Shown in pieces: positions 3,578 to 22,379 of a DNA stretch of 23,792 bases (the stretch's first letter is position 1; the number at the start of each line of letters is the position of its first letter). The stretch is from a virus, in the IMG/VR virus record IMGVR_UViG_3300043772_000259, positions 1 through 23,792 of that record; one strand, written 5' to 3'. The notes below the pieces were generated by a model, which searched no databases, had not been told where the DNA came from, and saw only the letters and a list, made by a program, of their open reading frames with translations. The position numbers and the translations under genes were made by a program.

Positions 3578-3581
3578 CAAA

Positions 3582-3606
3582 CCCCGATAAAAAGTCGGGG
3601 TTTTTT
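3582..3606 (+). terminator. Rho-independent terminator
   Basis: CCCCGA (3582-3587) pairs with TCGGGG (3595-3600) around a 7-nt loop and is followed by six T. It ends the 1904-3548 unit just before the chaperonin promoter. Confidence 0.9.
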
Positions 3607-3636
3607 GTTTTATATAGCAAATATTTGCTATTTTTG
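3605..3636 (+). promoter_or_regulatory. groEL promoter with overlapping 18-bp palindromic operator
   Basis: A -33 TTG at 3605-3607, a 21-nt spacer and the -7 box TATTTTTG at 3629-3636 fit the Bacteroidota consensus. The perfect 18-bp palindrome ATAGCAAATATTTGCTAT (3614-3631) fills most of the spacer and touches the -7 box, the position expected for a repressor or activator dimer. The AT-rich leader ending in AATAAA-ATG also precedes the genes at 13064 and 19867. Confidence 0.65.
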
Positions 3637-3653
3637 TGACAAAATATAATAAA

Positions 3654-5210
3654 ATGATAGTAAAAGAGATCCATTTTGGCGATGATGGCCAAAAAAAGCT
3701 CAAGAAAGGCATCAAAAAGATAGCTGGAGCTGTAAAAAGTACGTTAGGAGCGAGAGGTCGTACTGTATTGATTGAATCTGAGAACCATGTTGGAGGTTTG
3801 ACTGTCACAAAGGACGGTGTAACGGTAGCAAAGTCGATCAACTTGTATGATCCGACTGAGAATTTGGCTGTTATGATGATGCGTCAGGCGGCAGAGCGCA
3901 CTGCTACTGTTGCTGGTGATGGCACTACGACAAGTATTGTGTTAGCTGAGGCTATTATTGACGCATCTGACAAGTATTTGTCGGAGACTGACAATGTAAC
4001 TGAGGTGATACGTGAGATTAATCAGATCACTGGTCAAGTTGTTGCGCAACTAGACAAGAAGTCCAAGAAGTTATCAGGCAAAAAGTTAGTTGACGTGGCT
4101 ACTATCAGTGCTAATAATGACAGGGAGGTAGGTAAGATGATCGCTGATGCCTTTAGTGAGGTTGACATGGTGACAGTTGAGAACAGTATGACGACAAGCA
4201 CATATGTTGAGATAATTAAGGGTATGAAGATCGACAGGGGATATTCCTCAAGACTATTCATCAACGACCACAAGAAGCAGGAGTGTGTGTTAGACAATCC
4301 GTATATCTTGATCACTGACCATGAGATAAACAACATACAGAATTTAGAGAAGATATTGATACCAATTGTAACGCAGCAGAAGTCATTGTTGATTATTGGT
4401 GAGTTAGGTCAGAACGCGTTGAATACTTTAAATGCGAATGTTGCGGCAGGTAAGATTAAGGCTTGTGCTATTATGCCTCCATCGTTTGGATACAGGAAGA
4501 AAGACTTATTGGAGGATCTGTCAGTCGCTTTGGGAGGTGTTTATTTCTCTGAGGACACTGGTGATGACTTGTCGTTAATTGACCTTGACCATTTGGGTAG
4601 AGCTGTTAAGGTTATTGTTAGTAAGGGTATGACAGTATTTATGCATAGCGAGTCAAGAGATGAAGCGATCAATCAGAGAGTTGAGGAGTTGAAGGGTATG
4701 CGTGATGAGAGTACAAATTCTGAGGACAAGGCGTTTTTAAATGAGCGTATTGCCAACTTGTCGGGTGGTGTTGGTGTCATCTATGTAGGTGCGTTGAGTG
4801 ACATTGAGCAGAAGGAGAAGAAGGACAGGATTGACGATGCTGTGTGTGCGGTTCAAGCTGCTTTGGAGGATGGTATATTGCCTGGTGGTGGTGTAGCGTT
4901 GTTGGATGCGAGCATATCTACTGATTATTCAAGTACTGCACTTGCTATAATGTGTGATGCGCTAGAAGCACCATTTAGACAGATTGTCACAAATGCTGGT
5001 AAAAATTGTGACGATATATTGGCTAACAGACCCTTTGGATGTGGCTATGACGTGAAGAGTGAACAGTATGGCGACATGATGAAGCTTGGAATTATTGATC
5101 CGACCAAAGTTACAAAGAACGCACTATTAAATGCTGTGTCAGTTGCAACAACTATTATGAGTACAAATGCTATTATCACAAATGTAAGAGACTATGAAGG
5201 TTCTAAATAA
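3654..5210 (+). CDS. groL: Phage-encoded group I chaperonin GroEL, 518 aa
   Basis: A full-length 60-kDa chaperonin subunit that would assemble into a folding ring. Hallmarks are in order: TLGARGR (30-36), TKDGV (52-56), GDGTTT (88-93, nucleotide binding), apical KGMKIDRGYSS, RIDDAV (392-397, with the aspartate matching E. coli D398), PGGGVALL (410-417) and DPTKVT near the end. Two oddities: the near-invariant proline of TLGPKG is alanine, and the C-terminal GGM-rich tail is absent (ends VRDYEGSK), leaving it about 30 residues short of E. coli GroEL. I chose ATG 3654 over in-frame GTG 3636 because the latter lies in the -7 box. It is followed by an overlapping groES, the reverse of the usual bacterial order. 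It probably folds capsid or tail proteins. Confidence 0.96.
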   Translation: MIVKEIHFGDDGQKKLKKGIKKIAGAVKSTLGARGRTVLIESENHVGGLTVTKDGVTVAKSINLYDPTENLAVMMMRQAAERTATVAGDGTTTSIVLAEAIIDASDKYLSETDNVTEVIREINQITGQVVAQLDKKSKKLSGKKLVDVATISANNDREVGKMIADAFSEVDMVTVENSMTTSTYVEIIKGMKIDRGYSSRLFINDHKKQECVLDNPYILITDHEINNIQNLEKILIPIVTQQKSLLIIGELGQNALNTLNANVAAGKIKACAIMPPSFGYRKKDLLEDLSVALGGVYFSEDTGDDLSLIDLDHLGRAVKVIVSKGMTVFMHSESRDEAINQRVEELKGMRDESTNSEDKAFLNERIANLSGGVGVIYVGALSDIEQKEKKDRIDDAVCAVQAALEDGILPGGGVALLDASISTDYSSTALAIMCDALEAPFRQIVTNAGKNCDDILANRPFGCGYDVKSEQYGDMMKLGIIDPTKVTKNALLNAVSVATTIMSTNAIITNVRDYEGSK

Positions 5211-5451
5211 GTTTATAATTATAGAGAAAATAGCTGACAGTAAAGAACGCAGCTCAGGTCTTATAATGACAGTTGAGGACACTCGTGAGTTGAGGTATAA
5301 TAAGGCTAAAGTTTTGTCTGTTGGATCGATGGTATCTGGTATAACTGAAGCCAACGAGATATATTTTGACAAGGCGGCAGGTCATGACGTTTTGATAGAT
5401 GACAAACGTCTTACCGTAATTCAAGAGAAGGACGTTGTTTGTGTTCTTTAA
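5194..5451 (+). CDS. groS: Phage-encoded GroES-like co-chaperonin, 85 aa
   Basis: Small GroES-type lid protein. Residues 15-33 match the mobile loop, with SSGLIMT (20-26) at the place of SAGGIVLTG in E. coli; LIM would be the hydrophobic tripeptide that docks on GroEL. The flanking strands fit: LNKFIIIEKI at the start, AKVLSVG (38-44), and a C-terminal strand ending KDVVCVL. It is about 10 residues shorter than bacterial GroES and lacks a clear roof-loop sequence. The ATG lies inside the last codons of groEL (17-nt overlap), so the two are probably coupled. Its 3' end overlaps the convergent minus-strand gene by 41 bp with no terminator visible. Confidence 0.88.
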   Translation: MKVLNKFIIIEKIADSKERSSGLIMTVEDTRELRYNKAKVLSVGSMVSGITEANEIYFDKAAGHDVLIDDKRLTVIQEKDVVCVL

Positions 5452-5926
5452 GTTCTTTGTTATGTCTTTTAATTGCTATGGCTAGAGTCTTGTGAGAAAA
5501 TGGGGCTTTCTCTTTGAACACTACATTACGTCTATCTGACTCAGGTATAGGCTCTAGTCCAAGCAATTTTTTATAGATGGAGTTAACTAACTTTTTCCCT
5601 TTATACGACACCTCGTATAAGTTAGCTTCTTGGTGGCTGCGTTTGCGCCAAATATAAATCCAATCATCTTTCAGGAGTCTGTTGAACCGTTCTCGATCCC
5701 AAGACATTATATTTGAGTAGTTATCGAATTGTGTTCTGGTGAATAGTTTTTCTGAGTATAGGAACAGAATCATTTCTAGGTCGGCTGTTGATTTAAGTCC
5801 GTTGTTTGCTATAGCCCACTTTCTAATAATTGTCCAATGTTTTAAGAAGTCGTAAGCACCTTCTTTTCTAGCGTATAATTTTTCTGGACGTCTATACGTT
5901 ATTTTCTTTTTTACTTTAGGAATCAT
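5411..5926 (-). CDS. Winged-helix-like protein, candidate regulator, 171 aa
   Basis: The only clear minus-strand gene between 1904 and the right end. An earlier in-frame ATG (6103) lies inside other genes and codes for implausible sequence, so I use MIPKVKKKITYRR at 5926. Residues 25-125 have a MarR/winged-helix pattern: helices at WTIIRKWAIANNG and ADLEMILFLYSEK, a recognition-helix-like SWDRERFNRLLKDDWI (75-90), a wing (IYIWRKRSHQEANLYEVS) and a closing helix YKGKKLVNSIYKKLLG. The C-terminus is basic. DNA binding and regulation are inference; a virion role is possible. It faces the operon at 5957 and converges on groES. Confidence 0.85.
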   Translation of the reverse strand: MIPKVKKKITYRRPEKLYARKEGAYDFLKHWTIIRKWAIANNGLKSTADLEMILFLYSEKLFTRTQFDNYSNIMSWDRERFNRLLKDDWIYIWRKRSHQEANLYEVSYKGKKLVNSIYKKLLGLEPIPESDRRNVVFKEKAPFSHKTLAIAIKRHNKELKEHKQRPSLELR

Positions 5927-5931
5927 TTTAT

Positions 5932-5939
5932 TATATTTG
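5932..5939 (+). promoter_or_regulatory. Rightward -7 box TATATTTG for the small basic gene operon
   Basis: TATATTTG lies 17 nt upstream of the ATG at 5957, inside the 30-bp gap between two divergent genes. No good -33 TTG is visible, because that position lies in the coding sequence of the minus-strand gene. Confidence 0.5.
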
Positions 5940-5949
5940 TATTTCAAAA

Positions 5950-5957
5950 CAAAGTTA
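5950..5957 (-). promoter_or_regulatory. Leftward -7 box TAACTTTG for the winged-helix gene
   Basis: On the minus strand TAACTTTG (5957-5950) lies 23 nt before the ATG at 5926. It touches the start codon of the rightward gene, so the two divergent promoters overlap physically. A TTTG 24-25 nt further upstream is a weak -33. Confidence 0.45.
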
Positions 5958-12257: not shown

Positions 12258-12394
12258 TGAAAAAGCAGAAGGATATATCATCATTTATAGCAAAGCCAAA
12301 GGTAAGTAGACCAGGTGTTCATGCTAAGACAAAGACCTCTAAGACTAAGAGCTCTAAGAATTATAAAAAACAATATAAAGGACAAGGCAGATGA
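12257..12394 (+). CDS. Small very basic protein, 45 aa
   Basis: The ORF begins MKKQKDISSFIAKPKVSRPG and continues VHAKTKTSKTKSSKNYKKQYKGQGR. The RPGVHAKTKTSKxKxSKNYKK..GQGR pattern is one I have seen as a free-standing small protein in many phages. Its ATG shares a base with the amidase stop and its TGA overlaps the next ATG, giving strong operon support. Probably disordered; function unknown, possibly nucleic-acid binding. Confidence 0.82.
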   Translation: MKKQKDISSFIAKPKVSRPGVHAKTKTSKTKSSKNYKKQYKGQGR

Positions 12395-13032
12395 AAGTAA
12401 ATAATTATCCAGTTAAGACACCTGAAGCAGGTGATAAACTATTTGGAAGCGATTCAAGTGGTGATCAAGTTCAGTTTGACATGACTAATGTAAGTAATAA
12501 TGTATTTACTTATGAAATAGGTGAGTATGTTGAGGATGAAGGTGGAGTTATCTTTCATAGATATATTGATGACAATGTTCAATATTATTTAGTTGTCGAT
12601 ACAGCTAATTTGAGCACAGGGTCAGCATGGAGTAATGTTATTTCGCCATTAATTGGTTCAACTGCTCAAAGTACTTGGGATGGATTAAGTAATTCAAATG
12701 CAATAGTTAGTCAATCAGGATTTACAAGTGGAGCTGCTAAGTTATGTTTGGATTCAACAAATAATAGTAAATCAGATTGGTATTTGCCTTCTATGGATGA
12801 ATTAAGTTTAATTTCAAAAAGTAGATTTAACTTAAATATAACTTTATCAGGAAATTCTTCTTTTGGTTCAATAACTGGTGCTTCACAAATTTCAAATAAT
12901 ATATATTGGAGTAGTACTGAATCTACTAGTCCTGGAAATGCCTATCAATATGGATTTAATAGTGATTATATGTTTGAAAATGGTAAATCTGGTTCTTTTT
13001 ACGTTCGCGCAGTAAGAAAATTTAGCATATAA
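12391..13032 (+). CDS. DUF1566/C-type-lectin-like virion protein, 213 aa
   Basis: Residues 1-31 (VNNYPVKTPEAGDKLFGSDS) resemble an N-terminal tail-attachment segment. The C-terminal half has a DUF1566/Lcl_C pattern: DWYLPSMDEL (129-138), IYWSSTES (171-178), then a variable-looking NAYQYGFNSDYMFENGKSGS and YVRAVRKF (204-211). This is the formylglycine-enzyme/C-type-lectin fold of many phage receptor-binding proteins and of diversity-generating retroelement targets. No reverse transcriptase or template repeat is visible here. Likely an adsorption or cell-surface-binding protein in the lysis-adsorption operon. Confidence 0.82.
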   Translation: MKVNNYPVKTPEAGDKLFGSDSSGDQVQFDMTNVSNNVFTYEIGEYVEDEGGVIFHRYIDDNVQYYLVVDTANLSTGSAWSNVISPLIGSTAQSTWDGLSNSNAIVSQSGFTSGAAKLCLDSTNNSKSDWYLPSMDELSLISKSRFNLNITLSGNSSFGSITGASQISNNIYWSSTESTSPGNAYQYGFNSDYMFENGKSGSFYVRAVRKFSI

Positions 13033-13300: not shown

Positions 13301-13505
13301 AAAGATATCGGTTGGTCCTGACTATATGAAGTCAATGAACTACACTGTTGGTCAGGAAGTTCTTGATAAGAGTTATTCTATCTATCAAATTATAAGAAAT
13401 GAGGACGGAGTAAAGCTATATATAATTAAGGATGATGAGATTACTCTGTGGAAAGAGTTTTCAAATAATGTGCCTGTATCAATTGAATTTAATATAAATT
13501 TCTAA
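13287..13505 (+). CDS. Small conserved pre-terminase protein, GTG start, 72 aa
   Basis: The frame opens at 13245 but the family-like start is NIIRKISVGPDYMKSMNYTV, so I choose GTG 13287, which overlaps the upstream gene by 14 nt. ATG 13326 is an alternative that would lose the RKISVG strand. The rest is beta-rich with YSIYQIIRNEDGVKLYIIKD and LWKEFSNNVPVSIEFNINF, a pattern (WKxF...PxxIExNI.F) I recall from Bacteroidota phages. Function unknown. Its stop shares a base with the next ATG. Confidence 0.75.
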   Translation: MNIIRKISVGPDYMKSMNYTVGQEVLDKSYSIYQIIRNEDGVKLYIIKDDEITLWKEFSNNVPVSIEFNINF

Positions 13506-14065
13506 TGAAATCACCATACTGTTTTATCATCAAGCCAATTGATGGTAGGAGGTATGACAACATAAGAACTTACGGACAAACTGAGTTCATTGTAAGTGCC
13601 TCCCAAGAAGATCATACTGTATCAAATAGATTTGCAGAAGTAGTATCTGTTCCAATTTATTATAATGGGCCAATAGCACCTAAAGACATTGTGGTAGTGC
13701 ATCACAATGTTTTTAAGTTTTACTATGATATGCGAGGCAGACAGAAGAGTAGTTGGCATCATTTAAAGGATGACCTATTTATAGTTGAGCCTGAGCAAGT
13801 GTATCTATACTCCAAAGATAAAAACCTTTGGAGTGCACCATCTCCATTTGTTTTTATTAGACCTATTCCATCTGAGGATAAAATATTCAGCCCGATAAAT
13901 GGGCTTGAGGAGTTGTGGGGTGAATTGGTTTTTAAGAATGATGAATTGGATGAAGTAGAGGTTGGTGATATTGTATCATTTACTCCAGATAGTGAGTATG
14001 AGTTTAGAATTAATAACGAGATTATTTATAGAATGTATAATCGGAATATATGTCTAAAAAAATAG
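13505..14065 (+). CDS. Conserved phage protein with two GroES-like lobes, 186 aa
   Basis: Two similar halves can be seen. Residues 1-70 read FIIKPI ... RFAEVVSVP ... GPIAPKDIVVVHHNVF; residues 115-184 read FVFIRPIPSED ... ELWGELVFKNDELDEVEVGD ... FRINNEIIYRM. Both follow the GroES order: entry strand with Pro-Ile, a mobile-loop-sized stretch, a (G/A)EVV strand, a turn, then (G/K)DIV. It could be a second co-chaperonin (compare T4 gp31 in role) or a capsid-assembly factor of the same fold. It overlaps the next gene by 16 nt, just upstream of TerL. CDS sure; fold moderately supported; function inferred. Confidence 0.85.
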   Translation: MKSPYCFIIKPIDGRRYDNIRTYGQTEFIVSASQEDHTVSNRFAEVVSVPIYYNGPIAPKDIVVVHHNVFKFYYDMRGRQKSSWHHLKDDLFIVEPEQVYLYSKDKNLWSAPSPFVFIRPIPSEDKIFSPINGLEELWGELVFKNDELDEVEVGDIVSFTPDSEYEFRINNEIIYRMYNRNICLKK

Positions 14066-14350: not shown

Positions 14351-16570
14351 ATGGAAAATAATCTTTACAAAATACTTGATGATTATATTGCAAAAAATGT
14401 AATACTAACTAAGAACAGAAATAAATCTTGGGAGTATGGCTATGATCCAAAATATGATTTGGTAGTTATATCAAAGGATGGAACTATTGGCGAGATATAT
14501 GAGATTAATAGTGTAAAGATAGCTATACCATCAAAACCTGAAAAAATTGCAAGTTTCGATAATAAGTGGAAGCCACAAGAATATCCATCAGAACTGCAAA
14601 AGATAAAGACAATATTTGATTGGAATAGAAGAGATAATGCTTTTAAATCAAAGTATGTTGACTTAATTGAAGGTGAGTTTGACAAAAGGGAGAATGGTTA
14701 TTGGTTTATGAATAATAGTGTTCCTACTTATATAACAGGAACGCATTATATGTATTTGCAATGGACAAAGATTGATATTGGTCTACCTGACTTCCGAGAA
14801 TCAAATAGGATATTCTATATTTATTGGGAAGCATGCAAAGCTGACAATAGGTCATTTGGTATGTGTTACCTAAAGAACAGGCGTTCTGGATTCTCGTTTA
14901 TGTCTAGTTCTGAGATAAGTAATACAGGCACAATAGTTCGAGACTCAAGGATTGGTATACTATCAAAGACAGGATCTGATGCCAAGAAAATGTTTACTGA
15001 TAAAGTTGTTCCAATTGTAAGAAACTATCCATTTTTCTTCAAGCCAATTCAGGATGGTATGGACAATCCAAAGACTGAGTTAGCGTTTCGCGTTCCTGCT
15101 AGTAAGATTACTCGTAAGAATATGGATCAAGAGAATCAAGATGATATTGATGGACTTGATACAACAATTGACTGGAAGAACACAGCTGACAACAGTTATG
15201 ACGGTGAGAAGTTATTAATGCTTGTTCATGACGAAAGTGGTAAATGGGAGAAGCCTGAGAATATATTAAACAACTGGCGAGTAACAAAGACATGTCTTAG
15301 ATTAGGTAGTAAGATAGTTGGTAAGTGTATGATGGGTTCTACATCAAATGCATTGTCAAAGGGTGGAGAGAACTTTAAGAAGTTATATAACGATAGCAAT
15401 CCAACATCAAAGTCTGCCAATGGACAAACTAAAAGTGGATTATATTCTTTATTTATACCAATGGAGTGGAATATTGAGGGGTATATAGATGAATATGGTT
15501 GGCCTGTATTTGAAGATCCTGAGAAATCAGTAAAGGGTATTGATGGAGAGATGATATCTCAAGGAGTTATTACTTGGTGGAATAATGAGGTTGCTGCATT
15601 GAAAAGTGACTCAGATGCATTGAATGAATTTTACCGACAGTTTCCAAGGACTGAATCACATGCATTTAGGGATGAATCAAAACAGTCAGTATTTAACTTG
15701 ACAAAGATATACCAACAGATTGACTACAATGATTCGTTGATTAAGGATCACGTTTTAACAAGAGGTTATTTCCATTGGAAGAATGGTAAGTTAGATAGTG
15801 AGGTAGTCTGGACACCTGATAAGAATGGTAGATTTTTAGTATCTTGGATTCCAAATCAGCAACTGAGAAATAGAGTTATAACAAGAGGTGGGAAAAAGTA
15901 TCCTGGTAATGAGCACATGGGTGCTTTTGGATGTGACCCTTATGACATATCAGGAGTTGTTGGTGGAGGAGGTTCGAATGGTGCGTTACATGGTATGACT
16001 AAGTTTCATATGGAGGAAGCACCAACGAATGAGTTCTTTTTAGAATATATAGCAAGACCTCAGACTGCTGAGATATTTTTTGAAGATGTTTTAATGGCTT
16101 GTATTTTTTATGGTATGCCATTATTAGCTGAGAACAATAAGGCTAGGTTGTTGTATCATTTTAAGAACAGAGGATATAGGGCTTACTCAATGAATAGACC
16201 TGACAAGCATAAGACAAAGCTGTCTAAGACTGAGATAGAGATAGGTGGTATACCTAACTCATCTGAAGACGTAAGGCAGGCACATGCGTCAGCAATTGAG
16301 ACATATATTGAGGAGTATGTGGGTCTTGATACTGAGGGAACTTATAGAGATCCTGACTGTATGGGATCTATGTATTTTACAAAGACTTTAGAAGATTGGG
16401 CTAGATTTGATCCAAATAATAGAACAAAACATGATGCTTCTATTAGCTCAGGTCTAGCTATAATGGCTACACGTAAGCATTTATTTGAAACAGAGAAAAA
16501 AGAATCGAAAATAAGTATTAAATTTGTAAAATACGACAATCGTGGAATTAGAAGCGAAATACTAAAATAA
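14351..16570 (+). CDS. terL: Terminase large subunit (packaging ATPase-nuclease), 739 aa
   Basis: Drives DNA into the prohead and cuts it. The ATPase half has a deviant Walker A at CYLKNRRSGFS (172-182), Walker B LLMLVHDE (288-295, with Asp294-Glu295) and coupling motif MMGST (327-331). The nuclease half shows the three metal-binding acidic residues: Asp529 (GCDPYD), Glu594 (LLAENN) and Asp695 (KHDAS). An N-terminal ~150-residue extension makes it longer than many TerL and fits crAss-like versions. FYRQFPRTESHAFRDES (427-443) is typical of phage TerL. Stop and next ATG share a base (TAATG). Confidence 0.95.
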   Translation: MENNLYKILDDYIAKNVILTKNRNKSWEYGYDPKYDLVVISKDGTIGEIYEINSVKIAIPSKPEKIASFDNKWKPQEYPSELQKIKTIFDWNRRDNAFKSKYVDLIEGEFDKRENGYWFMNNSVPTYITGTHYMYLQWTKIDIGLPDFRESNRIFYIYWEACKADNRSFGMCYLKNRRSGFSFMSSSEISNTGTIVRDSRIGILSKTGSDAKKMFTDKVVPIVRNYPFFFKPIQDGMDNPKTELAFRVPASKITRKNMDQENQDDIDGLDTTIDWKNTADNSYDGEKLLMLVHDESGKWEKPENILNNWRVTKTCLRLGSKIVGKCMMGSTSNALSKGGENFKKLYNDSNPTSKSANGQTKSGLYSLFIPMEWNIEGYIDEYGWPVFEDPEKSVKGIDGEMISQGVITWWNNEVAALKSDSDALNEFYRQFPRTESHAFRDESKQSVFNLTKIYQQIDYNDSLIKDHVLTRGYFHWKNGKLDSEVVWTPDKNGRFLVSWIPNQQLRNRVITRGGKKYPGNEHMGAFGCDPYDISGVVGGGGSNGALHGMTKFHMEEAPTNEFFLEYIARPQTAEIFFEDVLMACIFYGMPLLAENNKARLLYHFKNRGYRAYSMNRPDKHKTKLSKTEIEIGGIPNSSEDVRQAHASAIETYIEEYVGLDTEGTYRDPDCMGSMYFTKTLEDWARFDPNNRTKHDASISSGLAIMATRKHLFETEKKESKISIKFVKYDNRGIRSEILK

Positions 16571-18999
16571 TGGAGAAATTATCAGTTGTAATTTATCAAT
16601 CACCATTTCCAAATCAAATGGCTAGTGACGAGGAAAAGTCAACTACCGAGTATGGATTAAAGGTAGCCAAGTCTATTGAGGGTGAGTGGTTTAAACGTAA
16701 AGCAAATACATGTCGGTTCTATGATCAATGGGGTGAATTCCATCGTTTAAGATTATACGCAAGAGGTGAACAACCTGTACAAAAATATAAGGATGAGTTA
16801 TCAGTAAATGGAGATATGTCTATGTTAAATTTAGACTGGACTCCAATTCCTATTATACCTAAGTTTGTTGATATTGTTGTCAACGGAATGAATGATAGGC
16901 TTTTTACAATTAAAGCTGAATCTCAAGATGTTATGTCTGCTGAAAAGAAAAACATATTTCAAGATATGATTGAGGCTGACATGATAGCTAAAGATTTCTT
17001 ACAGATGACAAAAGATCAATTTGGTATTGATGCCTTTAATGTTAATCCTGATGAGTTGCCTGAGAATGATGAAGAGCTTTCATTATATATGCAGTTAAAA
17101 TATAAACCTTCTATAGAGATTGCTGAGGAGGTTGCTATTGACACTATTCTTAAAATGAATGAATACTCAAAAATAAAGAAGTTAATCGATTATGATTTAA
17201 CTGTTTTGGGTAAGGCTGTTGCAAGACATACATTTTTAGTTAACGATGGATTAAAAGTTGATTATGTAGATCCTGCAAACTTCATTCATAGCTACACTGA
17301 ATTGAATGACTTTTCAGATTGCTATTACTTTGGTGAGGTTAAGCAAGTTCATTATACTGAACTTTTAAAAATTAATCCAAACTTAACTGACGATCAATTA
17401 AAAGAAATACGTAATGCTTCATCTGCTTGGTATGACTACTTTCCTATTATTAGAAACTATCAAGATGATGCATTCTTAAATGAGGTTGTAACATTACTTT
17501 ATTTAAACTATAAAACCACTAAAAGATTTGTTTGGAAGAAGAAAATTCTTGAGAATGGTGGTGAGCGAGTTATCAGAAAGAATGATACATTCAATCCTCC
17601 TGTTGAGGAAGGAATGATGTTTGAAAAAGTTGAGACAGTTCGTGATGTATGGTATGAAGGTATATTGGTAGGTGGTTCTAATATTATGCTGAAGTGGGAC
17701 ATGATGAAGAACATGGTTAGACCTAAGTCAGCTACACAAAGAGCACTTCCTAACTATGTAATGTTCGCACCTAGAATGTATAAAGGAAATACTGAGTCAT
17801 TAGTAAGACGTATGATTCCTTTTGCTGATCAGATACAATTGACTCACTTAAAGTTACAGCAAGTAATGAATAGAGTAGTTCCTGATGGGGTGTTTATTGA
17901 CGCTGATGGTATCAATGAAGTTGACCTAGGAACTGGAGCAGCATACAATCCAGAGGACGCTTTAAAACTATATTTTCAGACTGGTAGTGTTATTGGTAGA
18001 AGTTACACGCAAGATGGTGAGTTTAATAATGCTAGAGTTCCTATACAAGAGTTGAATTCAAATAGTGGTCAATCAAAAATGGCTGCATTGATAGGTAACT
18101 ATAATCACTATCTAAATATGATACGTGATGTGACTGGTATTAATGAGGTAAGGGATGGGTCTACACCTAGTCCTGACGCTTTGGTTGGAGTTCAGAAGCT
18201 AGCTGCATTGAATTCAAATACAGCTACTAGACATATATTAGAAGGTGGTTTAAATATAACAAAAAGATTAGCTGAATGTCTATCTATAAGAGTTGCTGAT
18301 ATATTAGAGTACTCTGACTTTGCTGAAGAGTTTGCAATGCAGATTGGTAAATATAATGTTGCGATACTTAATGACATAAAGGATCTTTATTTGCATGACT
18401 TTGGTATCTTTATCGAGTTAGCTCCAGATGAAGAACAAAAACAAATGCTTGAGGCAAATATTCAAGTTTCATTACAACAACAGACAATCGACTTAGAGGA
18501 TGCTATTGATATTAGAATGATTAACAATATTAAGTTAGCAAATGAGTTATTAAAGTTGAAGAGAAGAAAGAGAATGGAGCAGAAGCAGAAAGAACAAGAA
18601 ATGCAGTTCCAAATGCAAATGCAAAGTAACATTCAATCTCAACAAGCTGCTGCTGAATCTAAAGCTCAATTGATTCAACTTGAAGCTCAGTCTAAGATTC
18701 AGTTAAGAGAGGCTGAGATGAATTTTGCTGTTCAACAAATGCAAGCTGAAGCAGCTATTAAAGCTCAATTAATGGATCAAGAATTCCAATACAATATGCA
18801 GTTAAAGGGTATTGAGACGGATAACTTAATGAAGCGAGAAGAGAAAAAAGAAGAAGCTAAAGATAAGCGAGTTGATCTTCAAGCAACAAGACAATCTGAA
18901 TTAATTAATCAAAGAAAGAATAACTTACCACCATTGAACTTCGAATCGAGTGAAGATTCTTTGGATGGCTTCGATTTAGAATCATTTAGTCCTAAATAG
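16570..18999 (+). CDS. Portal protein, crAss-like, 809 aa
   Basis: Forms the dodecameric DNA channel at the capsid vertex. The core has MIPFADQIQLTHLKLQQVMN, LNMIRDVTGINEVRDGSTPS, VGVQKLAALNSNTATRH and NITKRLAECLSIRVADI, the order and wording I associate with crAss-like portals. Residues about 640-790 are a long Gln/Glu/Lys-rich helical tail (MQFQMQMQSNIQSQQAAAES ...), probably coiled coil and internal. The end is acidic (FESSEDSLDGFDLESFSPK). The length is typical of this portal group and well over the ~500-550 aa of many podoviruses. Its stop overlaps the GTG of the next gene. Confidence 0.92.
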   Translation: MEKLSVVIYQSPFPNQMASDEEKSTTEYGLKVAKSIEGEWFKRKANTCRFYDQWGEFHRLRLYARGEQPVQKYKDELSVNGDMSMLNLDWTPIPIIPKFVDIVVNGMNDRLFTIKAESQDVMSAEKKNIFQDMIEADMIAKDFLQMTKDQFGIDAFNVNPDELPENDEELSLYMQLKYKPSIEIAEEVAIDTILKMNEYSKIKKLIDYDLTVLGKAVARHTFLVNDGLKVDYVDPANFIHSYTELNDFSDCYYFGEVKQVHYTELLKINPNLTDDQLKEIRNASSAWYDYFPIIRNYQDDAFLNEVVTLLYLNYKTTKRFVWKKKILENGGERVIRKNDTFNPPVEEGMMFEKVETVRDVWYEGILVGGSNIMLKWDMMKNMVRPKSATQRALPNYVMFAPRMYKGNTESLVRRMIPFADQIQLTHLKLQQVMNRVVPDGVFIDADGINEVDLGTGAAYNPEDALKLYFQTGSVIGRSYTQDGEFNNARVPIQELNSNSGQSKMAALIGNYNHYLNMIRDVTGINEVRDGSTPSPDALVGVQKLAALNSNTATRHILEGGLNITKRLAECLSIRVADILEYSDFAEEFAMQIGKYNVAILNDIKDLYLHDFGIFIELAPDEEQKQMLEANIQVSLQQQTIDLEDAIDIRMINNIKLANELLKLKRRKRMEQKQKEQEMQFQMQMQSNIQSQQAAAESKAQLIQLEAQSKIQLREAEMNFAVQQMQAEAAIKAQLMDQEFQYNMQLKGIETDNLMKREEKKEEAKDKRVDLQATRQSELINQRKNNLPPLNFESSEDSLDGFDLESFSPK

Positions 19000-19640
19000 T
19001 GGCATATATAGAACATAATTTTTTTCCTTTGAAGGTATTCGTTAGAAATGAGTACATGTATCAATTTAAAAAAGGGTATGGTGAATTTACAGAAGGCGTA
19101 ATTATATCGGTAAGATGTATGCCAGGTCAAGCTGCATTATTTCAAGTTTTACTTGAGAATGGTGTTATGAGAGATAAGTTACCTAGCCATGCGTTACTAA
19201 CTGAACCAGAGTTACCAAATCCCGATCTACCTTTCCATTACTTACAGATATGGAACTGTTTTAGCTATCGTTTTACATTGACACAACTTTCTTATGTGTA
19301 TGATACAAATGTTGATGTATATATGAAAGATAGGCAGTGGCACAAAGGAACTTATTACGCTACAATAAATTGGGGGTCTAACGATATAAATACTGATATT
19401 ACATTGGCTGAAGATCCACTAGAGCACAAATCACATCATATAATATTACTTGATAACGGTCAGATAGCCTTACAGCCAAACAATAGAGTACGTTGGTATG
19501 AGCCTTCATTTGTTACAAAAGAGTTTCCATCTAAGCCTGACTACTTGGTTAATAACGCTTGGTTTAACTGCGAAGGGTTTGATAAGTGGCATACTGAAGA
19601 TTCAGACGCTATGTTTTATGACAACATAGACCTAGATTAA
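18999..19640 (+). CDS. Conserved phage structural-region protein, GTG start, 213 aa
   Basis: GTG at 18999 overlaps the portal stop (TAGTG) and gives MAYIEHNFFPLKVFVRNEYM. Distinctive stretches are VISVRCMPGQAALFQVLLEN, DITLAEDPLEHKSHHIILLD and NRVRWYEPSFVTKEFPSKPD. The latter two recall a protein repeatedly found between portal and scaffold/capsid genes in Bacteroidota phages; I know no assigned function. Trp/Tyr-rich beta make-up and position suggest a head-completion or connector component (inference). The last gene before a regulatory gap. Confidence 0.9.
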   Translation: MAYIEHNFFPLKVFVRNEYMYQFKKGYGEFTEGVIISVRCMPGQAALFQVLLENGVMRDKLPSHALLTEPELPNPDLPFHYLQIWNCFSYRFTLTQLSYVYDTNVDVYMKDRQWHKGTYYATINWGSNDINTDITLAEDPLEHKSHHIILLDNGQIALQPNNRVRWYEPSFVTKEFPSKPDYLVNNAWFNCEGFDKWHTEDSDAMFYDNIDLD

Positions 19641-20981: not shown

Positions 20982-22379
20982 ATGGCTGGTACATTACAAG
21001 CGAGTCCTGGTGTAAATATTACACCTAGCTCCGTTAAGGCAACATTGCCTACAAACTACATCACTAACTTCAATTTCTTGAATCAGTATCTTCCTGATAC
21101 TTATGAGCAAGAATTTGAGCGTTATGGAAACCGATCTATCGCATCTTTCTTGCGTATGGTTGGTGCTGAAATCCCTTCTAACTCTGACTTAATTAAGTGG
21201 GCGGAGCAAGGTCGTTTACATACTAAGTATACTGCTGTTACAGCTGTAGGTGCTTCAGGTGGTGATGACTCTGTAACTTTTGACATTGGTACAGGAACTT
21301 GTGTTTTCCGAATAGGTCAAACTGTATTCTTATCAAACAATGCTTCTGCATCTTCATCTTACAAAGGTATTATCACTGCTTTACCTGCTTCTGATCGTTT
21401 TACAGTAGCTTTCTATAATGCAGGTGGTATCTTAGCAGGTGATACTGGAGCTACATTTACTGCTTTCGTTTATGGTTCTGAATTCAAAAAAGGAGCTAAC
21501 GGAATGAGCGGTTCTTTAGAAGCTGAAGATAGCTTTTTTGAAGTATCTCCTATCATCATCAAAGATAAATATGTTGTATCAGGATCTGATATGGCTCAAA
21601 TCGGATGGGTTGAGGTAACTACTGAGAATGGAGCTACTGGTTATTTGTGGTATTTGAAATCAGAGCACGAGACTCGTCTACGTTTTGAAGATTATCTTGA
21701 AATGGCAATGGTAGAAGGTGTTATTGCTGAAACTGGTTCTGGTGCTATAGCTGCAACTGGTGATATTGGTAACAAAGGAACTCAAGGTTTATTTGCTTCT
21801 ATCGAATCAAGAGGAAATGTATGGGCTGGTGGTAATCCATCTGCTTTGGCTGACTTTGATACTATCGTACAACGTCTTGACAAGCAAGGAGCTATCGCTG
21901 AGAATGCATTGTTCTTGAATCGTCAATTCTCTTTCGATATCGATGATATGTTAGCTGCTCAAAACTCTTACGGAGTTGGTGGTACATCTTACGGATTATT
22001 CGATAACAGCGAGCAAATGGCTTTAAATCTTGGATTCACAGGATTCCGTAGAGGTTATGAGTTCTACAAAACTGACTGGAAATATCTTAACGATGCTACT
22101 CTTCGTGGTGGTCTAGTTGGTGGAGCTGTAAACGGAGTTTTAGTTCCTGCTGGTACAACTACAGTTTATGACCAAGTTCTTGGTAAAAACGCAAAACGTC
22201 CATTCTTACACGTTCGTTACCGAGCTTCTGAAGCTGAGAACAGACGTTACAAAACTTGGATGACTGGTTCTGCTGGTGGTGCTGCAACTAGCGATCTTGA
22301 TGCAATGGAGGTTAACTTCTTGTCTGAAAGAGCTCTTTGTACACTTGGTGCAAACAACTTCTTTATCTTCAAAGGATAA
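20982..22379 (+). CDS. Major capsid protein, crAss-like, 465 aa
   Basis: HK97-fold capsid subunit by inference. The segment FERYGNRSIASFLRMVGAEI / SNSDLIKWAEQGRLHTKY (about 45-83) closely recalls crAss-like capsid proteins. Residues 85-170 look like a beta insertion domain (DSVTFDIGTGTCVFRIGQTV). The C-terminal half reads ALFLNRQFSFDIDDMLAAQN and MALNLGFTGFRRGYEFYKTD. Codon choice differs from most neighbours: many CGT, ATC and TTC codons where others use AGA, ATA and TTT, as expected for the most expressed gene. It is followed by a terminator. Confidence 0.94.
   Translation: MAGTLQASPGVNITPSSVKATLPTNYITNFNFLNQYLPDTYEQEFERYGNRSIASFLRMVGAEIPSNSDLIKWAEQGRLHTKYTAVTAVGASGGDDSVTFDIGTGTCVFRIGQTVFLSNNASASSSYKGIITALPASDRFTVAFYNAGGILAGDTGATFTAFVYGSEFKKGANGMSGSLEAEDSFFEVSPIIIKDKYVVSGSDMAQIGWVEVTTENGATGYLWYLKSEHETRLRFEDYLEMAMVEGVIAETGSGAIAATGDIGNKGTQGLFASIESRGNVWAGGNPSALADFDTIVQRLDKQGAIAENALFLNRQFSFDIDDMLAAQNSYGVGGTSYGLFDNSEQMALNLGFTGFRRGYEFYKTDWKYLNDATLRGGLVGGAVNGVLVPAGTTTVYDQVLGKNAKRPFLHVRYRASEAENRRYKTWMTGSAGGAATSDLDAMEVNFLSERALCTLGANNFFIFKG

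Follow-up and report, generated by a model that had tools for sequence, protein, structure and literature searches.

A conserved groEL-groES pair in a lineage of phages, probably a functional, phage-dedicated chaperonin with altered lid-binding and ring-ring surfaces

We analysed the IMG/VR virus record IMGVR_UViG_3300043772_000259, a 23.8-kb stretch of DNA that is probably a fragment and that we call the window over its whole length, and found on its plus strand two chaperonin genes, groEL (3654..5210, +), encoding a chaperonin of 518 amino acids (aa), followed by groES (5194..5451, +), encoding a co-chaperonin of 85 aa. The genes overlap by 17 nucleotides (nt; 5194..5210, +), and the same overlap is present in 71 of the 78 loci in which both genes are complete, namely the window and 77 relatives. 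The GroEL matches PF00118 over residues 23-510 (E=5.9e-54; 184 bits against a cut-off of 34.3) and PHROG_5725 (E=4.4e-131), and the GroES matches PF00166 (E=1.5e-9; 38.2 bits against a cut-off of 21.1) and PHROG_3188 (E=1.6e-13). Upon structure prediction, the GroEL model (predicted local distance difference test, pLDDT, 81.6, with a poor stretch at 41-61) was closest to E. coli GroEL (Z 38.8, 502 residues, root-mean-square deviation, rmsd, 4.0), and the GroES model (pLDDT 86.9) to Thermus Cpn10 (Z 11.5, 75 residues, rmsd 2.5). An earlier note on this DNA had described a phage with both ring and lid genes, groEL lying ahead of an overlapping groES, and the families, the predicted folds and the gene order all bear this out. 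Judged by its full-length Cpn60 domain and its three catalytic aspartates, the ring protein is classed as a group I chaperonin. The same note had begun the locus at 3605, which takes in the tail of a terminator and the promoter; the ATG at 3654 is the likelier groEL start, because a GTG at 3636 coincides with the final base of the promoter box and was discarded as a start. The placement of the pair between capsid-type modules holds only loosely, with immediate neighbours of unknown function and the terminase, portal and capsid genes starting about 9 kb downstream.

Next, we investigated how the pair is likely to be expressed. The sequence TATTTTTG (3629..3636, +) is a candidate promoter box for groEL-groES of the form TAnnTTTG, which is the -7 element of Bacteroidota promoters. 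Such a box lies within 45 nt upstream of the groEL ATG in 75 of 77 loci, at a distance that is almost always 16-19 nt, whereas shuffled upstream sequence yields a mean of 3 and a maximum of 10; it is also enriched over the whole window (45 against 31 +/- 5 expected). A terminator-like hairpin with a T run (3579..3603, +; 10 pairs, 5 of them G-C, by scan) would end the upstream transcription unit, and a run of six T is found 15-75 nt upstream in 49 of 77 loci, although the number of terminator-like hairpins in the window stretch is not above that in shuffles. The hairpin and the conserved box together support the private promoter that had been proposed. A scan for sigma-70-type promoters gave results not clearly above shuffles, and the upstream palindrome GCAAATATTTGC (3617-3628), considered as an operator, was dropped since relatives do not conserve it.

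Upon scanning IMG/VR with the window GroEL we obtained 119 relatives, of which 80, at 53-98% identity, were kept. All 20 GroEL-bearing records that were checked also have the structural protein of the window (20982-22379), which served as a capsid-module marker for fetching records regardless of their chaperonins. Among the records fetched in this way, every one of those at least 58 kb long (9/9) encodes both GroEL and GroES; two of the seven shorter ones have both genes and the other five lack GroEL and show no GroES above the cut-off, some of them perhaps being fragments. No GroEL match was obtained in the two phages that were checked and whose capsid protein is distant (24% identity). The link between capsid lineage and chaperonins is only a correlation, the pair being carried by near-complete genomes whose capsid protein is close. 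In a tree built on GroEL only, GroES being too short, the phage clade forms a single group (100/100) outside all sampled cellular GroEL, including those of Bacteroides, Prevotella and Parabacteroides, which come from records filed as plasmids; this phylogenetic check against Bacteroidota had been put forward in the earlier note. Host-derived contamination or misassembly is refuted in practice, because the locus is conserved across independent viral contigs, 80 in number, where the pair sits among phage genes; together with the separation of the phage clade from cellular GroEL, this leaves that explanation with next to no probability.

Both genes are under purifying selection, omega between close relatives being 0.05-0.11 in groEL and, for the most part, 0.07-0.37 in groES, with synonymous sites being near saturation in more distant pairs. 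The GroEL and GroES distances correlate (r=0.84, shared ancestry uncorrected). A decaying or non-functional gene pair would account for the loss of the canonical Pro33, the GGM tail and interface residues, which are described below, but the purifying selection, the intact catalytic residues, the absence of frame breaks and the conserved promoter make it very improbable.

The relatives of the terminase and of the structural protein are found in phages of Flavobacterium, Cellulophaga, Tenacibaculum (terminase only) and Maribacter. Because these relatives infect Bacteroidota and the TAnnTTTG box precedes groEL almost throughout, the host is very likely a member of this phylum. In the GroEL tree the Flavobacterium elemo phages and Maribacter phage Panino adjoin the window clade (99/92), but on long branches, so that we are unsure of this sister relation. 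Bacteroides phage DAC16 and LR756501 group instead with Bacteroidota GroEL, and therefore such chaperonins have probably entered phages on more than one occasion.

We then examined individual GroEL residues in 58 distinct members of the phage clade and 36 bacterial references. The catalytic positions D52, D87 and D398 are invariant in both sets, their equivalents being intact in the window, and both hinge glycines are unchanged. The nucleotide loop of the window protein reads TLGARG in place of the near-invariant, though not strictly defining, TLGPKG. The alanine that had been noticed at its proline is a trait of the whole lineage, P33A occurring in 58/58 clade members and proline in 36/36 bacterial references; the related GroEL proteins of L078 and of the deposited phage MW202828 retain Pro33, and this position varies in other phage GroELs too. 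The GGM tail, also remarked on earlier, is indeed absent, the C-terminus being ...ITNVRDYEGSK, yet this distinguishes the protein less than it seemed, since GGM occurs in the last 30 residues of just 17 of the 36 bacterial references. Two apical-groove residues are replaced in all 58 phage proteins, L234 by Glu and V263 by Asn, where bacteria have L/V/I and V, respectively. In GroEL, it is L234, L237 and V264 that contact the mobile loop of GroES at its IVL triplet (PMC3514286).

Across the lineage, GroES has a length of 85-86 aa. As had been proposed, the short GroES of the window keeps a mobile loop, with the hydrophobic triplet in the form GLIM, and the relatives have GLLL, GLIL, GLLM, GFMY or a GGLL/GGLI form; this stretch is modelled with low confidence, as expected for a flexible loop. 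Since the groove is altered (L234E, V263N) and the phage lid has GLIM, the phage ring and lid may be matched to each other and separate from the host pair. The roof beta-hairpin is absent, leaving a nine-residue gap relative to cellular GroES in the viral rows displayed from the alignment. The hairpin is not strictly defining for Cpn10, the accepted analogue T4 gp31 having none; gp31 has no roof loops, a lack thought to aid its folding of the large capsid protein gp23 (PMC6318259).

Group I chaperonins usually form two stacked heptameric rings, and single rings are known. We observed that, of eight ring-ring positions, K105, A108, A109, R452, S463 and V464 lie at the 88th-98th percentile of variability in the phage clade and E461 at the 73rd, and that the segment aligned with E434 is deleted. 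Their mean entropy reaches 2.42, compared with 0.77 in randomly drawn equatorial residues (p=0.0001), and in the bacterial references the same positions do not stand out (1.42 against 1.24, p=0.30). An acidic residue (Glu or Asp) occupies position 464 in 31 of the 58 phage proteins and replaces K105 in 23. In E. coli GroEL, R452E/E461A/S463A/V464A produce a single ring, and the changes of a resurrected ancestral GroEL that forms a single ring include S463A and V464E (PMC12696368). Because the contact residues are hypervariable, 464 is acidic in so many members and the single-ring mutants hit the same positions, the phage GroEL is quite possibly a single ring, which we regard as a fair prediction. 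The windowed pN/pS peaks at 0.72 in residues 421-440 and stays below 1 throughout, so that positive selection at the ring face is unproven and the pattern is read as relaxed or mildly diversifying.

Several points weigh against a single ring and a remodelled lid. The eight positions were picked beforehand from knowledge of E. coli GroEL, and the bacterial controls are an imperfect match, being mostly Planctomycetota with a mean identity of 60% compared with 72% in the phage set. Bacteroidota GroES roofs are about 5 residues shorter than that of E. coli, so that part of the shortening may be inherited and the step is smaller than it appears. Furthermore, the variable residues could also belong to an ordinary double-ring GroEL whose interface was re-tuned, for example in a way that avoids mixed rings with the GroEL of the host or of other phages: they vary instead of turning uniformly disruptive, the window retains Arg452, and the divergent chaperonin of phage EL forms double rings without nucleotide (PMC7185714). 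The frequent acidic residues at 464 and 105 and the deletion at E434 run counter to a re-tuned double ring, to which we give slightly less than an even chance.

Overall, we consider it probable that the locus encodes a working group I chaperonin pair dedicated to the phage and belonging to the core of a lineage of Bacteroidota tailed phages of 58-68 kb, with a lid matched to its ring and a ring that acts at least partly singly. Here the two genes would have a promoter of their own and be translated in overlap, and the phage ring would bind and hydrolyse adenosine triphosphate (ATP) with the usual catalytic residues. The altered apical groove would fit the phage lid, making exchange with host GroES unlikely, and the roofless lid would, by analogy with T4 gp31, leave the dome open or roomier, which might suit phage proteins that are too big or too difficult for the host chaperonin; with its ring-ring contacts lost, the chaperonin would work at least partly as a single ring. 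The dedicated machine suggested earlier is favoured by the co-inheritance of ring and lid, the altered groove and the missing roof, whereas altered ATP kinetics and capsid or portal proteins as substrates, also raised in that note, are conjectures. The pair might instead assist proteostasis in general, supplementing host GroEL/ES in the infected cell, and have no special phage substrate; such genes are often described as auxiliary, and the hydrophobic apical positions F204, L237 and L259 are largely kept in the phage clade, but the lineage-wide changes in groove and lid and the linkage to one capsid lineage suggest specialisation, and we hold a general aid to be rather unlikely.

A stronger version of the dedicated pair is conceivable but doubtful: a phage GroEL that is single-ring by nature, folds proteins beneath a roofless GroES of its own and has a lid-binding groove orthogonal to that of the host. 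If true, it would unite true encapsulation by a lid with the single-ring habit seen in phage chaperonins, and the free ring face would evolve fast because it is exposed. The lineage bears on whether chaperonins need two rings and on how ring and lid stay private in a cell that holds another pair. It contains dozens of natural GroEL sequences with a freely varying ring-ring surface, a fixed ATP site and a lid gene that overlaps the ring gene, and it possibly supplies an orthogonal chaperonin pair of use for phage-protein folding.

When comparing the pair with known systems, we found a GroEL match in 252 of 50,697 deposited phage records, a clonally biased count; the statement that few phages encode a chaperonin therefore stands as a fraction and fails within the lineage of the window. 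The rarity claimed for the joint presence of both genes or for their reversed order does not hold, as deposited phages (MW202828, the elemo phages and Panino) already have groEL then groES, the order being annotated in MW202828 and the elemo phages. A tblastn search of INPHARED with the GroES returned MW202828 only, the protein being short and divergent, and annotation and profile searches reveal more. Marine et al. 2017 reportedly found that gene order follows GroEL phylogeny, so that the reversed order has probably been described already. The Maribacter phage Panino paper reports both genes (PMC11590407), and the presence of GroEL together with GroES in some phages has been stated with reference to Marine et al. 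2017 (PMC7185714). Since deposited phages and the literature already have both, the pair is of a known kind and its novelty lies in the lineage-specific changes. As a separate observation, the 3,184-base contig L085, binned as a Planctomycetota metagenome-assembled genome, carries groEL then groES at 420-2558, with a GroEL 39% identical to that of the window; its gene order is the reverse of the usual bacterial one, and it could be cellular or phage.

The closest deposited system is MW202828.1 (Podoviridae sp. ctfjg026, 60.8 kb, Manatee Spring), which resembles the window in its terminase (70%), its structural protein (66%) and a Cpn10-related gene upstream of the terminase; its GroEL, however, is 49% identical and keeps Pro33 (TLGPRG), and its chaperonin genes are 4 nt apart in contrast to the 17-nt overlap. 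The elemo phages (Elemovirus) and Panino, isolated Bacteroidota phages, have homologs of both genes at identities of at most 40%, with a P-loop of TMGYRG or TLGASG. Pseudomonas phages EL and OBP and Bacillus phage AR9 encode much more distant GroEL homologs (19% identity for AR9), for which single-ring states and action without a co-chaperonin are reported (PMC9598537, PMC5934643); because GroES is adjacent and co-inherited, such lid-independent action seems unlikely for the window GroEL. T4 gp31, a roofless phage lid needed for the folding of capsid protein gp23 (PMC6318259), differs in working with host GroEL, in having no phage ring partner and in its longer mobile loop. GroELs are also widespread in marine viromes, some with GroES (Marine et al. 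2017; Nishimura et al. 2017), and those of 36 genomes were tied to Cellulophaga-type phages (Nishimura et al. 2017, PMC5332604).

Beyond the pair, the window encodes a second Cpn10-related protein of 186 aa (13505..14065, +) upstream of the terminase, matching PHROG_13932, 'co-chaperonin GroES' (E=1.1e-14 over 1-182). Its C-terminal half aligns with the GroES profile at an hhalign probability of 95.6%; the N-terminal half (18%) is unsupported, and a tandem Cpn10 duplication was rejected. The only solved proteins that it matches are Cpn10s, with weak E-values of 0.0075 and up, and Pfam Cpn10 matches 3 of the 15 members aligned (best E=8.5e-8), the window copy being unmatched. Since a mobile-loop triplet is not evident, the protein may not be a lid, and possibly represents a Cpn10 fold reused in packaging. 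It is apparently more widespread than GroEL (576 against 119 confirmed stretches), its gene usually ends 244-289 nt before the terminase, and Cpn10 profile searches of related phages give extra matches directly before the terminase. Cellulophaga phages phi18:3 and phi19:3 have a protein of this type and a small GroES, with no GroEL match.

Among the remaining genes, a convergent small open reading frame (ORF; 5411..5926, -; PHROG_17028, E=8.1e-9) slightly overlaps the end of groES and has a match next to groES, on the opposite strand, in 79 loci. In MW202828, a minus-strand ORF in the corresponding position carries the annotation 'repressor protein'. Two TAnnTTTG boxes on opposite strands, about 10 nt apart, occur at 5932-5957 and could form a divergent promoter that serves the minus-strand ORF as well as the genes on its right. 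The terminase large subunit (14351..16570, +; PHROG_6681, E=5.2e-176) is followed by the portal protein (16570..18999, +; PHROG_6547, E=1.8e-152), and the structural protein used as a marker (20982..22379, +; PHROG_13704, E=5e-107), whose annotation says no more than virion structural protein, is the probable major capsid protein. Between the portal and capsid genes, 18999-19640 encodes a 213-aa protein matching PHROG_3704, 'ferredoxin' (E=7.5e-63), a label that is probably wrong because Pfam gives no ferredoxin match. Finally, the product of 12391-13032, directly after the amidase and holin genes, contains an Lcl C-terminal domain (PF07603, E=9.5e-11) and may be variable or bind a receptor.
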